NCBI GenBank assembly: GCA_022647615.1
Contig: JALCKZ010000001.1
Coordinates: 298,178 to 362,177 of the forward strand
Source of the DNA: Bacteroidales bacterium
GTDB lineage: Bacteria; Bacteroidota; Bacteroidia; Bacteroidales; UBA932
Length of the DNA stretch: 64,000 bases
Direction: 5' to 3'
In this document: piece by piece, positions 269 to 31,615 of the stretch
Layout: the number at the start of each line of letters is the position of its first letter
Position numbering within the stretch: the first letter of the stretch is position 1
The notes under the pieces: model-generated
What the model saw: only the letters and a program-made list of their open reading frames with translations
Told to the model about the DNA's origin: nothing
Databases searched by the model: none
Translations under genes and position numbers: made by a program

Positions 269-2695
269 CTAAAAGTAATAACCAAGTGATACATAAGCTC
301 CTACTTTGTGGTTATAATCTGACCAGTGAAGATTAAAACTGAGCGGACCAAGCGGAGTATCATAAGAATATTTGAGAGCGGCACCCCAATAACCACCTTT
401 GGAAATATCTATTATTCCACCAAGATTGCCCTCTGTTCTCATATAATTGCAGATAGCGTAAACATAATGTTTTTTGCCAATTTTTTTGCGCAAATCCAAC
501 CGTGCAACCGCAACTGATTTATTCATTGCGTTTGCATAATTTATCCCAATGAACGGAATCTGATGATCTATGTATCTTCCTTCCTCTGAGCCACCTACAA
601 AGTTGTAAAAAGGAAATTCCGACTTATTGTTGAGAGTTACTCTTGCATAAATATAAGGGATAAGCACAAAATCATGAGTAAGATTTATTGCCAGATGATA
701 ACCAAGGCGAAAAGCTGCAAATCTGTTAAATCCGGAATGGAACCCTGCAAAGTAATACTCAGCGGACGCATCCAGATACATTCCCCTTTTGGCAAAATAT
801 TTACTGTCCCGATTATCCATTTTTGCATCTGCAAAAACACTGGCATAACTGCGTGCTTTTAAAGTATAATCAGATTCATTTATGTAGTCAGATAAAAATT
901 TTGTGAATTTAAAATTCTGAATTTTTACTCCCGCTTTTATATCAAAATTTCTCAAATACATATTTGCAAAACATGCTTCCACTCCGTTATATATGTATGA
1001 AATATTATTTTTGGAAACATTTGAACTATAGATGTTTAAATCTCTAGTACCAAATTCATACATCGCCACAAAGCGCGGAAAATGTCTGAAGACATAAGTA
1101 TACTCATTTTTAATGTAAGGATTATAACTTAGCCTTGCTGTAATTCCAAATCTGGAACCATGCAAATCATATTGGTGAATTCCAAGATGCAGCAGCAGTG
1201 CCGCCGCCTCTTCTGAATCATAATGCGCTCCAAAACTTATGATGTTAGTTGGTCCCTTCTTAAAAATAAAAGTCAGTTTTTCCTCCCCGCTCTTTTGCTG
1301 CGCAAGCTGATAAGCAACTTGTGAAAATGCCTGAGTTCCAATAAATAATGATATTGCTTCATTAATCTGGGCTCCGCTTACAGTACTGTTTTCTGAAATT
1401 CCGGCTAGGTTAAGCAGCCACTTTTTATCATTTGGAGAAACTCCATCCATCCCTATCTCGCCAATCTTAAATTTTGAGCGGTAAATCTCCCTGGCGGAGG
1501 AATTCTTCTCCTGGTCTGTTCCATGAAAATTTGCCGGCCCCGTTTTTCTCAGAAGAGACTGCAACCTTTCATCCTTAACCAACGCGGCGGCATACCCGTT
1601 TGCTACCAAAGTATCTATTGCGCTTTTGCTGAAACTATAAGTGCCAAATTTTGAAACATCAGGCTTTATATAAACATCTGCATCTTCCTTATTCTTAAGG
1701 AATTTATCATTTCCCATAAGGCCAATCAGCTGATTGAAAACTTTATCAATTGAGTTCAAGTCACCAGCCTTAAGCAAGTCATTCTGAACGTCTACGCCAA
1801 TCACAATATCCGCACCCATTTTGCGGGCAATATCTATCGGGAAATTATTCACAACACCACCATCCACCAAAACTTTTCCGTCAATTGTAACAGGGGCAAA
1901 TACTCCCGGAATTGACATGCTGGCTCTCATGGAGAGAGGAAGATAGCCATGATCCAAAACAACCTCTTCTCCGGTTGCCAAATCAGTAGCCATGCACGCA
2001 AACGGGATTGGAAGTTTTTTGAAATCTATTGAATCCTGGTACCCTATTGCAAGTCCGTTGAGCAGATTAAGAACATTTTGTCCGCTTATATAAGCACTTG
2101 GCAATCTGCCTATTAAAGATGTTTCTTGTGAGCGCGAGTTATCAGTTGCGGAAACATTTGCAGCCTTATTAGCTTTGTTATCTTTTGATGTTTTACCGCT
2201 ATTTTTTCTTGCAATTTTTTCTGCATTAATTTTTGCCGTATCCCTCTGCACCTTGCTTAATCTTCCGCCGGCCCTCAAGTTGTAGAATGGCAAATTTATT
2301 AGGTATTTTTCATCCGACATCTTCCTGGAAAAAGATGCGTCAACCCTTTTAGAGTTGTCACTCAAAAGATAAGACCAATCCGCATTCCCAATTAAAGAAT
2401 CCAGCTGGTCTGCGCTGTAACCCATTGAATACAAACCACCTATAAGCGCACCCATAGAAGTCCCGACAATCAAATCTACCGGGACATGCAGCTCCTCCAG
2501 CCTTTTAAGCACTCCAATATGCGCAGCTCCTTTTGCACCGCCGCCACATAATACCAAACCAACTACCGGTCTTTTTTTCTTCCCGACAGATTTATTTACG
2601 GCTAACGTATCTTTTTGAGTAATTGCCCCCGCCTGCTGACCGTTGCCGCAAACAACTAAAAGAAAAACAGTTATGACTGCAAGAAACTTCCTCAT
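269..2695 (-). CDS. Patatin-like phospholipase with C-terminal outer-membrane beta-barrel
   Basis: An 808-residue protein with a signal peptide (about residues 1-24), a patatin domain (about 43-310) and a C-terminal half resembling a POTRA segment plus a BamA/Omp85-type barrel, the PlpD-like layout. The catalytic pieces are intact: oxyanion loop GGGAKG (51-56), nucleophile Ser80 in GTSMG, and Asp278 in DGG. It is predicted to sit in the outer membrane with the lipase on the periplasmic side or exported. A K/N/S-rich stretch at about 157-192 interrupts the patatin domain and looks like a flexible insertion. The start ATG overlaps the rlmN stop by 4 bases, suggesting translational coupling. A paralog lies at 52503-54977. 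The substrate is unknown. Confidence 0.85.
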   Translation of the reverse strand: MRKFLAVITVFLLVVCGNGQQAGAITQKDTLAVNKSVGKKKRPVVGLVLCGGGAKGAAHIGVLKRLEELHVPVDLIVGTSMGALIGGLYSMGYSADQLDSLIGNADWSYLLSDNSKRVDASFSRKMSDEKYLINLPFYNLRAGGRLSKVQRDTAKINAEKIARKNSGKTSKDNKANKAANVSATDNSRSQETSLIGRLPSAYISGQNVLNLLNGLAIGYQDSIDFKKLPIPFACMATDLATGEEVVLDHGYLPLSMRASMSIPGVFAPVTIDGKVLVDGGVVNNFPIDIARKMGADIVIGVDVQNDLLKAGDLNSIDKVFNQLIGLMGNDKFLKNKEDADVYIKPDVSKFGTYSFSKSAIDTLVANGYAAALVKDERLQSLLRKTGPANFHGTDQEKNSSAREIYRSKFKIGEIGMDGVSPNDKKWLLNLAGISENSTVSGAQINEAISLFIGTQAFSQVAYQLAQQKSGEEKLTFIFKKGPTNIISFGAHYDSEEAAALLLHLGIHQYDLHGSRFGITARLSYNPYIKNEYTYVFRHFPRFVAMYEFGTRDLNIYSSNVSKNNISYIYNGVEACFANMYLRNFDIKAGVKIQNFKFTKFLSDYINESDYTLKARSYASVFADAKMDNRDSKYFAKRGMYLDASAEYYFAGFHSGFNRFAAFRLGYHLAINLTHDFVLIPYIYARVTLNNKSEFPFYNFVGGSEEGRYIDHQIPFIGINYANAMNKSVAVARLDLRKKIGKKHYVYAICNYMRTEGNLGGIIDISKGGYWGAALKYSYDTPLGPLSFNLHWSDYNHKVGAYVSLGYYF

Positions 2696-3924
2696 CCATT
2701 TTTATTTTTAAGACCGCTCAACATTCCGCACGCCGCAAAAATATCTTCTCCCCTGGAGGCTCTTATTGTAGCGGTAATGCCCGCATTGCAAAGACGCTCC
2801 TTAAATTGCTCAATCACAGGCATCGGCGAACTTTGAAATTTTGTATCTCCAATGTCATGGAATCTTATCAGGTTGACTCTGCATTCCAAACCTCTTAACT
2901 TTGAGATGATTGCATCTGCATGTCGTTTGTTGTCATTAAGGCCTTTGAACATGATATATTCAAAGCTTACTCTGCGCTGTCCCGTAAAATCATATTGCCT
3001 AATGATTTCCAACGTTCTGTCAAGCGGGTTAAGATCCTCCGCCGGCATCATATCCTGCCGCTCTTCAGCAAACGGGTTGTGCATGCTCACCGCCAGATGT
3101 GTCTTTGTCTCATCCAAATAACGCTGCAACATAGACTCCACAGCAACTCTAGCAATCGGCGTAGCAGAGCCTGGCGAGCGCATGGAGCGCAGCGACTTTA
3201 AGCGAGCGGGCTGCTGCAAGCCGATTGCATCGCCTGAGCTTTTTACTGGCACTGATGAAGTTGCAAAACCAGCTGAGCGCATGGAGCGCAGCGACTTTAA
3301 GCGAAGCGGTTTCTGCAACTCATCAGTGCCGTGAGGAGCTGAGCTGCTAATCCCGATGGTACTGACAGTAATCCTCTTAGGACTCCATCCGCACCCCCAC
3401 TCCGCAGTAAGCACATCAATAGCGCGCTCCACATTCTCAAGGTTATCAAGCGGCTCCCCCATCCCCATAAACACTGCGTTGGTAAGCCTTTCAGCCTCAG
3501 GAATTGCAAAAAACTGAGAGAGAATTTCAGCGGCATCCAAATTCCCCTTGAAACCCTGTCTGCCGGTCATGCAAAATTTACATCCCATCCGGCACCCAGC
3601 CTGAGAAGAAACACACAAAGTTGCGCGCTCCTCCTCCGGAATCATAACAGCCTCTATAAACGAGCCTGTATGACAAGGAAAAAGATATTTTTTTGTACCA
3701 TCCTTTGACACAGCCGCTTCAGCCGGCAGTACCAGTCCAACAGCGTAATTTTCAGAAAGTTTCTGTCGTGATAAAAGAGAAAGGTTTGTCATTTGCTCAA
3801 AACTTGCAACTCTCTTTTTATAAAGCCATTGCGCAATTTGACCTCCCGCAAATGAGGGCAGGGAAAGGGCTTTGCAAATCTCCTTAAGTTCACCGATATT
3901 TTTGCCTAAAAGTTTCTCTTTCAT
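2692..3924 (-). CDS. rlmN: 23S rRNA (adenine-2503-C2)-methyltransferase RlmN with in-frame palindromic insertion
   Basis: Radical-SAM enzyme that methylates A2503 of 23S rRNA and tRNA A37. The Fe-S cluster motif CxxxCxxC is present as C111-RMG-C115-KF-C118, the GMGEPLDN SAM-binding motif is at about 154-161, and the second catalytic cysteine is in the C-terminal segment EDIFAACGML. At 410 residues it is longer than the usual 340-360. The excess lies at residues of about 193-262, between STIGI and the segment leading into THLAVSMHNPF, where relatives have only a short loop. The extra residues contain two copies of RLKSLRSMRS, encoded by two palindromic DNA units (see the repeat entry). The frame stays open throughout. 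Whether the enzyme is still active cannot be told from sequence. Confidence 0.9.
   Translation of the reverse strand: MKEKLLGKNIGELKEICKALSLPSFAGGQIAQWLYKKRVASFEQMTNLSLLSRQKLSENYAVGLVLPAEAAVSKDGTKKYLFPCHTGSFIEAVMIPEEERATLCVSSQAGCRMGCKFCMTGRQGFKGNLDAAEILSQFFAIPEAERLTNAVFMGMGEPLDNLENVERAIDVLTAEWGCGWSPKRITVSTIGISSSAPHGTDELQKPLRLKSLRSMRSAGFATSSVPVKSSGDAIGLQQPARLKSLRSMRSPGSATPIARVAVESMLQRYLDETKTHLAVSMHNPFAEERQDMMPAEDLNPLDRTLEIIRQYDFTGQRRVSFEYIMFKGLNDNKRHADAIISKLRGLECRVNLIRFHDIGDTKFQSSPMPVIEQFKERLCNAGITATIRASRGEDIFAACGMLSGLKNKNG
3152..3330. repeat. Two tandem palindromic repeat units inside rlmN
   Basis: Two units about 99 bp apart share a 30-bp identical core (3176-3205 and 3275-3304; begins GAGCGCATGG, ends CTTTAAGCGA). 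Each core is flanked by its own pair of inverted arms: unit A has 3152-3171 against 3209-3228 (GCAATCGGC... with GCCGATTGC), and unit B has 3248-3270 against 3308-3330 (GGCACTGATGA... with TCATCAGTGCC). The arms differ between units but stay self-complementary, with a few mismatches. The whole insertion is a multiple of three and has no stop in the rlmN frame. It resembles the in-frame palindromic elements known from Rickettsia in style, not in sequence. Confidence 0.85.
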
Positions 3925-29976: not shown

Positions 29977-30603
29977 ATGGAGACAACAAGAAATACCTGC
30001 ACTACCGGGGACTGCAACGTTTACCATGTGATGCTAAGAGGAGTGGATGGCAAGCCTCTTTTTTTAAAGGATGCAGATTATAGGAAATTTTTATTTCTGC
30101 TTAACAAGAGGCTGAATGAATTTAGTGCATCGCTCTATGGATTTGTACTGATGACAAATCATGTACATTTGCTTATGAAGTGTTATGATATAAAATCTTT
30201 AATCAATGTATTAACTAACGGATATACAGGATATTTCGTTAATACGTACAAACAATATTCTGCTCTGTTTGGAACTCCAAAAATTATTGAAAAACCGTCT
30301 GAGGAATTTATGGGAGAAAATCTTTGGTACATTTTAAATAATCCTGTGAAAGAAGGTATGAGTAAAACCCCTGGCGGCTATAAATACAGTTCATACCTAT
30401 TTTACACTAGGCGAAAAACAAAAATATCAAGTCTAATAAATGTAGATTGTAGTTTTGTTAAGGAGCACTATCAATCTATGTCTGAGCTAAATGAGGATTT
30501 AAAAGAGGATTTGAGGAGGAGTAAGTCTAAAAAGAAGTTTAGGAAATCCTATGGTCTAAAATATAATGGATGGAATAAGTGGAGAATGGGCAGTAAACAG
30601 TAA
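29977..30603 (+). CDS. REP-associated tyrosine transposase (Y1/HUH, IS200-like)
   Basis: 208 residues from ATG at 29977 (METTRNTCTTG); the frame is open upstream to 29920, but homology starts here. Features are the N-terminal YHVMLRGVDGKPLFLKDADYRKFL, the HUH motif in LMTNHVHLLMK, and ENLWYILNNPVKEGM with GGYKYSSYLFY late in the protein, characteristic of RAYT proteins. The catalytic tyrosine is likely in the YILNNPVK region. RAYTs are single-copy, domesticated transposases that act on short palindromic (REP) sequences, which are present nearby. The C-terminus is basic. The stop codon merges into the 14-bp tandem repeats. Confidence 0.88.
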   Translation: METTRNTCTTGDCNVYHVMLRGVDGKPLFLKDADYRKFLFLLNKRLNEFSASLYGFVLMTNHVHLLMKCYDIKSLINVLTNGYTGYFVNTYKQYSALFGTPKIIEKPSEEFMGENLWYILNNPVKEGMSKTPGGYKYSSYLFYTRRKTKISSLINVDCSFVKEHYQSMSELNEDLKEDLRRSKSKKKFRKSYGLKYNGWNKWRMGSKQ

Positions 30604-30812
30604 GCAGTAAGTAGTGAGTAGTAAGCAGTGGGTAGTAAGTAGTGAGTAGTGGGTAGTAAGCAGTGGGTAGTAAGCAGTGGGTAGTAAGCAGTGGGTAGTA
30701 AGCAGTGGGTAGTAAGCAGTGGGTAGTAAGTAGTGGGTAGTAAGTAGTGGGTAGTAAGCAGTGGGTAGTAAGCAGTGGGTAGTAAGCAGTGGGTAGTAAG
30801 CAGTGGGTAGTA
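30596..30812. repeat. 14-bp tandem repeat array after the transposase gene
   Basis: Degenerate 7-8-bp blocks (GTAAGCA, GTAGTGA) grade into about eleven clean 14-bp units GGGTAGTAAGCAGT. The array starts at the transposase stop codon (…AAACAG TAA GCAGTAAG) and ends just before the right 124-bp repeat. Confidence 0.9.
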
Positions 30813-30819
30813 TTATGCC

Positions 30820-30943
30820 GGGTGTACTCCTAGGGGGAGCTGGCCTTCAACATGTTACGAAAGATTCCTTTTTTAAAAAAGACATATTCTGCAACTGTCT
30901 GACTTACAGCGCCACCCCAGACTACTCCAGATCAAGCAGTTAC
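30820..30943. repeat. Right copy of the 124-bp inverted repeat
   Basis: Inverted match of 28376-28499, with 3 differences seen by eye (about 97.6% identity). It encloses an internal A/T palindrome CCTTTTTTAAAAAAG. Confidence 0.9.
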
Positions 30944-31021
30944 AGAAACATGATAGCACGCATGCAACAACCTTATTACAAGCCGTATACATGTATAGTA
31001 AATGTGAGACACAATTGCCAC

Positions 31022-31196
31022 AAAACTGCATGCTTGCTATACTGGCATGCAGAGCATTCCAAAGAAAAACTGCATGCTTGCTATGCTCGCATGCAGAGCA
31101 TTCCAAAGAAAAACTGCATGCTTGCTATACTGGCATGCAGAGCATTCCAAAGAAAACTGCATGCTTGCTATGCTCGCATGCAGAGCATTCCGCCAC
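31022..31196. repeat. Four tandem hairpin units (REP-like)
   Basis: Four units of 42-44 bp, each with CTGCATGC, an 11-base loop, then GCATGCAG, followed by AGCATTCC. Loops alternate between TTGCTATACTG and TTGCTATGCTC (1-3 and 2-4), implying duplication of a two-unit block. Simple stem-loops like this are the substrates of RAYT transposases. Confidence 0.85.
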
Positions 31197-31246
31197 AAAG
31201 CGGCGTAATGCATTGTGGTTTACGTGGCTGCCGCCACGAGGAGGCA

Positions 31247-31309
31247 GCGCGCCACGTGGCGCGCGGGCAATAAAAAAGAGAAGCAAATTTGCTTCTCTTT
31301 TTTATTGCC
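31247..31309. repeat. Right edge of the island: GC palindrome and perfect 44-bp palindrome
   Basis: 31247-31264 is an identical copy of the 18-bp palindrome GCGCGCCACGTGGCGCGC found at the left edge. Immediately beyond, 31266-31309 is a perfect 44-bp palindrome (GGCAATAAAAAAGAG... and mirror), with T-runs on both sides. It can terminate transcription in both directions. Confidence 0.85.
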
Positions 31310-31327
31310 TTGTGTTTTCCAATGCCC

Positions 31328-31615
31328 CTACTCGTCCACGGTCCAGGTGAAGACACGTAGTCCAAGGGCGGGAAATTGTGAATCTAAGTCCAGAAGACGT
31401 TTCTTTAAATCGGCCACGTCTGCATCTGGAGCAAAGATTAAAATAGAGGAATTCATGGTTGGCCATGCGTGGCTTCCATAGTGCGGTTCGCCATTTATGC
31501 TGCCGCGTCCGCGGACTTGCGCCCAGTTTGTAAATCCCTTAATGTTAGTCTTTTCCAAGAGTGCAAGGATTGCATCATAATGAGCCTCATTAAATGTTGT
31601 AAATATTGCTTTCAT
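31328..31615 (-). CDS. PG0541-family, PII-like transporter-associated protein
   Basis: 95 residues with a ferredoxin-like PII-type fold: MKAIFTTFNEAHYDAILALL, then IKGFTNWAQVRGRGSINGEPHYGSHAWP, and the late strand. The family is found in Bacteroidetes next to RND efflux operons, as here. It is presumed to bind a small ligand or the pump and regulate it; this is unproven. It is the last gene of the efflux operon but is separated from the pump gene by 292 bp holding a 13-bp tandem array. Confidence 0.8.
   Translation of the reverse strand: MKAIFTTFNEAHYDAILALLEKTNIKGFTNWAQVRGRGSINGEPHYGSHAWPTMNSSILIFAPDADVADLKKRLLDLDSQFPALGLRVFTWTVDE

Follow-up and report, generated by a model that had tools for sequence, protein, structure and literature searches.

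In-frame palindromic elements are known chiefly from Rickettsia, and to our knowledge how they move has not been established. The Rickettsia palindromic elements (RPEs) are hairpin repeats that lie in frame in unrelated conserved genes and are tolerated by the host proteins (PMC10969869; PMC6649704), and the identity of their arms has been reported to be lost over time (PMC6649704). Coding inverted repeats also occur in mitochondrial genes of Nematomorpha, where arm identity is actively maintained and template switching has been suggested (PMC6649704). Homogenization of arms and inversion of the spacer by template switching are documented in coding DNA (PMC8604942), and a role of template switching in the origin and upkeep of stems has been proposed (PMC8794818). 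Here, we analyzed a window (the whole stretch of 64,000 nucleotides, positions 298,178-362,177 of one 2.23-Mb contig) of a Bacteroidales genome and found a second, apparently unrelated case beyond Rickettsia. Its paired copy-specific arms, inverted orientation at common sites and clustering together point to errors of DNA replication as the driving force.

The rRNA-methylation gene rlmN lies on the minus strand at 2692..3924 and encodes a 410-aa open reading frame with intact RlmN motifs (TIGR00048; PDB relatives 3rf9 and 5hr6). Even with its insert, the protein stays above the cut-off of the NCBIfam model TIGR00048 and keeps the conserved motifs. RlmN of the nearest relative, a sister species (genome G001), has 338 aa (72 fewer), and compared with it, the gene carries an in-frame insert at 3130..3345 (minus strand; 216 bp, 72 codons, residues 194-265). 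The flanking matches to this relative abut exactly in a protein search (7561/7562), which corresponds to a 216-bp insert with no net loss, and alignments found the insert residues neither in G001 RlmN nor in the other RlmN of the genus examined. An earlier note, made from these letters alone, had placed the insert at 3139-3348, which was right to within about 10 bp, and its claim of about 70 added residues in an unbroken frame was borne out. Either of two results would have refuted that note, namely the same residues in RlmN of relatives or a core found nowhere else in the genome, and neither was obtained. The AlphaFold2 model of RlmN (pTM 0.72) has pLDDT <50 at residues 192-262 and at two other short stretches; judged from this model, the insert is probably a disordered loop, and its solvent exposure is a matter of inference only. 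The RlmN loop after the TIG/SIG motif differs in length across the genus, without palindromes (alignment A3), and owing to this variation in length we regard the loop as a permissive, tolerant site.

Two palindromic units make up the element in rlmN. The 30-mer GAGCGCATGGAGCGCAGCGACTTTAAGCGA occurs exactly at 3176-3205 and again at 3275-3304, with a spacing of 99 bp; the arms are unrelated between the units, and each pair of arms is self-complementary, just as the earlier note had described. Unit b (3152..3228, plus strand) has arm limits at 3152-3160 (outward) and 3220-3228, as defined by sequence, fold and arm alignment. Its arms read GCAATCGGC...GCCGATTGC, and its 30-bp centre (3176..3205, plus strand; exact repeat) contains a 27-nt core at 3178-3204. 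Unit a, with its inner and outer arms, covers about 3234..3344 (plus strand; sequence and fold), with arms that read GGCACTGATGAAGTTGCAAAACC...GGTTTCTGCAACTCATCAGTGCC and a 30-bp centre (3275..3304, plus strand; exact repeat) whose 27-nt core is at 3277-3303. Folded as ssDNA, unit a reached z = -6.4 (3245-3338), with a fold energy of z = -6.0 in the window scan, and unit b reached z = -2.3. A gapless inverted-repeat scan did not detect the units because they contain bulges. Chance matches to the 27-nt core with up to three mismatches numbered 0 in 100 shuffles of the window.

When the core was sought in the remainder of the 2.23-Mb genome, the element proved to be present in 13 copies, each in an open frame within a conserved gene. 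The 27-nt core was recovered 11 times with at most three mismatches, and the covariance model added two further copies, each of which has a core loop longer by one base. The copies reside in rlmN (two), metH (two), an addA/uvrD-like helicase gene (two), uvrA, miaA, dnaX, ppx, ispH, lpdA and an M16 peptidase gene; except for rlmN, these names are our reading of the translations, with no profile test. No intergenic copy was found in the genome (0/13), and we do not claim a preference for genes, since such a count is not improbable at an estimated ~12% of intergenic DNA. In 159 kb of this genome's own DNA, sampled so as to include copies and with hairpins scored by GC-corrected energy, all in-gene hairpins that reached z <= -4 contain the core (4 sites), and 180 kb from two other genus members contained one in-gene hairpin at z <= -4, which is unrelated. 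As regards other palindrome families, it is this core that the strongest in-gene hairpins of the window and of the 159-kb sample contain.

Outside this genome, the sister species has two clear copies and one decayed copy in dnaX, and these three likewise fall in open frames of conserved genes. A covariance model search of the other 37 genus genomes gave no convincing copy, and a pattern search of the rest of 300 family genomes gave no core match; the element was thus seen in only one other species among those searched. A weak model match in one genus member (G016, L046) was judged to be due to chance and reflects a GLEPGERV coding motif. No exact core pattern occurred in genome_contigs or viral_contigs, and the consensus had no blastn match among plasmids and phages. 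No description of the element in this group came up in searches of open-access literature, which is only weak evidence of novelty because coverage is incomplete.

The copies are strongly clustered: 10 of the 13 have another less than 5 kb away (random mean 0.7; at least 10 never in 20,000 draws), and 6 of the 10 host genes fall within 105 kb (P = 5e-5). This clustering suggests that the centre spreads mostly to nearby sites. The spread of the element could be the work of a transposase acting on a miniature element (a MITE or a REP-like element, e.g., one mobilized by Y1/RAYT) that inserted as a complete hairpin, with arms that diverged afterward and were corrected only incidentally. We consider this explanation unlikely, but it cannot be neglected. 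The genome has seven Y1_Tnp matches, the highest number in the genus, the near-identical centres are compatible with recent spread, and the inserts in rlmN (72 codons) and miaA (about 24 codons) are clean. However, none of the seven Y1 genes has a core-like sequence nearby (the best had 8 mismatches of 27), and neither a consistent target duplication nor a consistent flanking direct repeat was found at the copies. That test effectively covered 12 sites, as both rlmN rows were identical and probably represent the same copy read. The outer arms, moreover, are not common to the copies, and the lack of intergenic copies also counts against a transposase. Elsewhere in the window, a Y1_Tnp (RAYT-like) match at 30022-30261 is followed by a block of strong hairpins at 30988-31330. 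Within this block, ACTGCATGCTTGCTAT units recur and positions 31266-31309 form a perfect palindrome of 44 bp; the region 30022-31330 may be a REP/RAYT locus.

The arms diverge between copies and still pair within them. Among the copies of this genome, identity between copies is 0.955 in the core, 0.5-0.65 over the first 12 nt of the arms and 0.44-0.50 over 13-18 nt, and is near background beyond ~18 nt from the centre. In 12 of 13 copies, the two arms match each other much more closely in alignment than they match the arms of other copies, miaA being the exception; the poorly paired arms are those of the miaA copy here and of the metH copy in G001. The element is organized as a conserved centre of 27-30 bp, semi-conserved inner arms (about 10-18 nt) and site-specific outer arms. 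When 13 copies were aligned (11 from this genome and 2 from G001), 19 of the 28 predicted pairs had double changes, and two-sided changes outnumbered one-sided ones by 57 to 5 cells, which was matched by 0 of 500 shuffles. Sliding the partners by 1-3 columns reduced pairing from 91% to 30-38%. The proposal of the earlier note that the arms were made locally, for example by template switching, or evolve under a pairing constraint is supported by this loss of likeness beyond 18 nt and by the pairing within each copy. Bulges occur at fixed places in most copies and are uncorrected, which implies that the inner arms were inherited with the centre and that arm correction is incomplete. In addition, the metH_1, metH_2, addA_1 and M16 copies are bordered by arm segments of 13-18 nt that recur exactly as direct repeats, and the spacings of the direct arm-segment repeats (L003, L006, L007 and L058, around position 1500) are divisible by three.

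Covariation of this strength, together with the conserved bulges and the constant centre, would also be expected of a functional mRNA hairpin in which pairing is kept by selection. However, nearly all of the paired changes are of the Watson-Crick type, and among the 79 non-Watson-Crick positions only 10 are G-T, which is no enrichment but close to the 1 in 6 that chance would give. An RNA stem under selection is expected to be enriched in G-U, whereas a DNA copy need not be; therefore, this comparison discriminates between the two and favors DNA copying. Furthermore, the units lie in both orientations relative to the gene, so that the transcribed hairpin differs, the host genes have no obvious pathway in common, Rfam gave nothing above threshold for the element, and the element is missing from the same genes of other species. 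We therefore regard a selected RNA hairpin as quite improbable.

Eleven of the 13 copies read as ERMERSDFKR or RLKSLRSMRS, which are the hydrophilic open frames of the two orientations; the peptide thus differs with the orientation of the unit, and the hydrophilic frame is used though another open frame exists. The M16 peptidase (L058:1501-1578) and lpdA (L059:1501-1580) copies carry an extra base, C or T, at one shared position of the core loop, and their frame is shifted yet open through the whole unit. Translational bypass, for which the byps of Magnusiomyces mitochondria are the example and in which the ribosome would skip the hairpin and leave the insert out of the protein, would suit hairpin inserts in conserved genes with otherwise intact host proteins but is extremely improbable, because all of the copies preserve the frame and 11 of 13 use the hydrophilic one, neither of which would be required of an insert that is skipped.

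The comparison with the sister species offered further evidence. All three G001 copies sit at sites that are also occupied in this genome, and orthology is the simplest reading of them. Two of these sites, addA_1 and metH_2, carry the unit in opposite orientations in the two genomes: flipping the G001 unit in silico raised the alignment score from 47 to 99 at addA_1, where similarity then spans both arms, and from 56 to 79 at metH_2. In-place inversion at these two sites is a second signature of template switching, absent from the earlier note, but independent insertion is not excluded, as two separate insertions at one permissive loop could also leave inverted orientations. At metH_1, G001 has GCAGGTAACTGCAAGTCCGGAGATTCTGC, which matches the right arm here, with no core and no left arm, and the M16 gene of G001 likewise has one arm only and lacks the core. 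These core-less alleles are compatible with the earlier suggestion of template switching for the arms. They fit either insertion of a centre accompanied by the host flank copied in inverted form or a partial loss that left a deletion scar in G001, and the outgroups are too divergent in the metH_1 and M16 loops to polarize them. The empty alleles of rlmN and miaA show no clear pre-existing arm, and which arm arose first remains unproven. In dnaX (L009), a nearby duplicate of the flanks has neither the centre nor the right arm's inner part; it is possibly a natural empty or deleted copy, in a low-complexity region. The ispH loop of G001 (L097) has an apparently unrelated insert of its own where this genome has the element.

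Overall, we favor, with moderate confidence, a coding palindrome specific to this lineage, with arms that replication template switching copies, homogenizes and flips and with a translation product that is probably a disordered loop. The palindrome would make the replicating polymerase switch template between the arms; by inference, such a switch would copy flanking host sequence into the second arm, correct arm mismatches, duplicate arm segments and flip the unit. The centre would move mostly to nearby sites, perhaps through the same replication errors, although its transfer to new genes is inferred and not shown. The inserts would be translated as hydrophilic, probably disordered loops, and survival would be restricted to frame-preserving, tolerated insertions; most likely, the host protein derives no function from the element. 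Template switching accounts for the Watson-Crick covariation, the flipping, the local arms and the arm duplication, and we think it reasonably probable that it drives the formation of the arms and the flipping, but less so that it is the sole route of spread. The near-invariant centre requires recent spread from few sources or selection acting on it, for which template switching alone is insufficient. We speculate, only tentatively, that the element is an enzyme-free selfish palindromic centre of ~30 bp that spreads nearby via template switching, builds its arms from the recipient gene, flips in place and survives in essential genes as a translated loop.

Strong covariation is commonly read as proving that an RNA is functional, and the present element indicates that it can arise at the DNA level, for which the missing G-T enrichment provides a usable test. 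Additionally, this genome and G001 together allow gain, flipping and decay to be compared across two species.

Among known systems, the REP/REPIN elements with RAYT (Y1) resemble the element in being short, bulged bacterial hairpins, and Y1 genes are present in this genome. However, REPs are mainly extragenic with conserved stems, in contrast to the wholly intragenic copies here, and none of the seven Y1 loci is flanked by a core-like repeat. The target-site duplication of DDE-transposon MITEs was not consistently present either. In-frame insertion into conserved genes, the mark of RPEs, is met by 13 of 13 copies. Nevertheless, RPEs are about 150 bp long with a conserved peptide, whereas the conserved part here is 27-47 bp, the arms are random between copies beyond 18 nt and there are two peptides; unlike in RPEs, the copy-specific arms still pair and the unit is inverted between species. 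The element works like an RPE but is distinct from RPEs, as the earlier note had supposed, with the proviso that no RPE sequences were compared. With the coding palindromes of Nematomorpha it shares arm maintenance within protein-coding genes, but those are long perfect repeats derived from conserved coding sequence with no common centre, whereas here a constant centre is dispersed as an insert. Quasipalindrome template switching predicts Watson-Crick homogenization of arms without G-U intermediates, which is met by the two-sided changes and the G-T count, and inversion between the arms, which is met at addA_1 and metH_2 with the reservation given above. The quasipalindrome cases known so far are single events at existing short repeats, whereas the copies described here form one family that is scattered over many genes and shares its centre.
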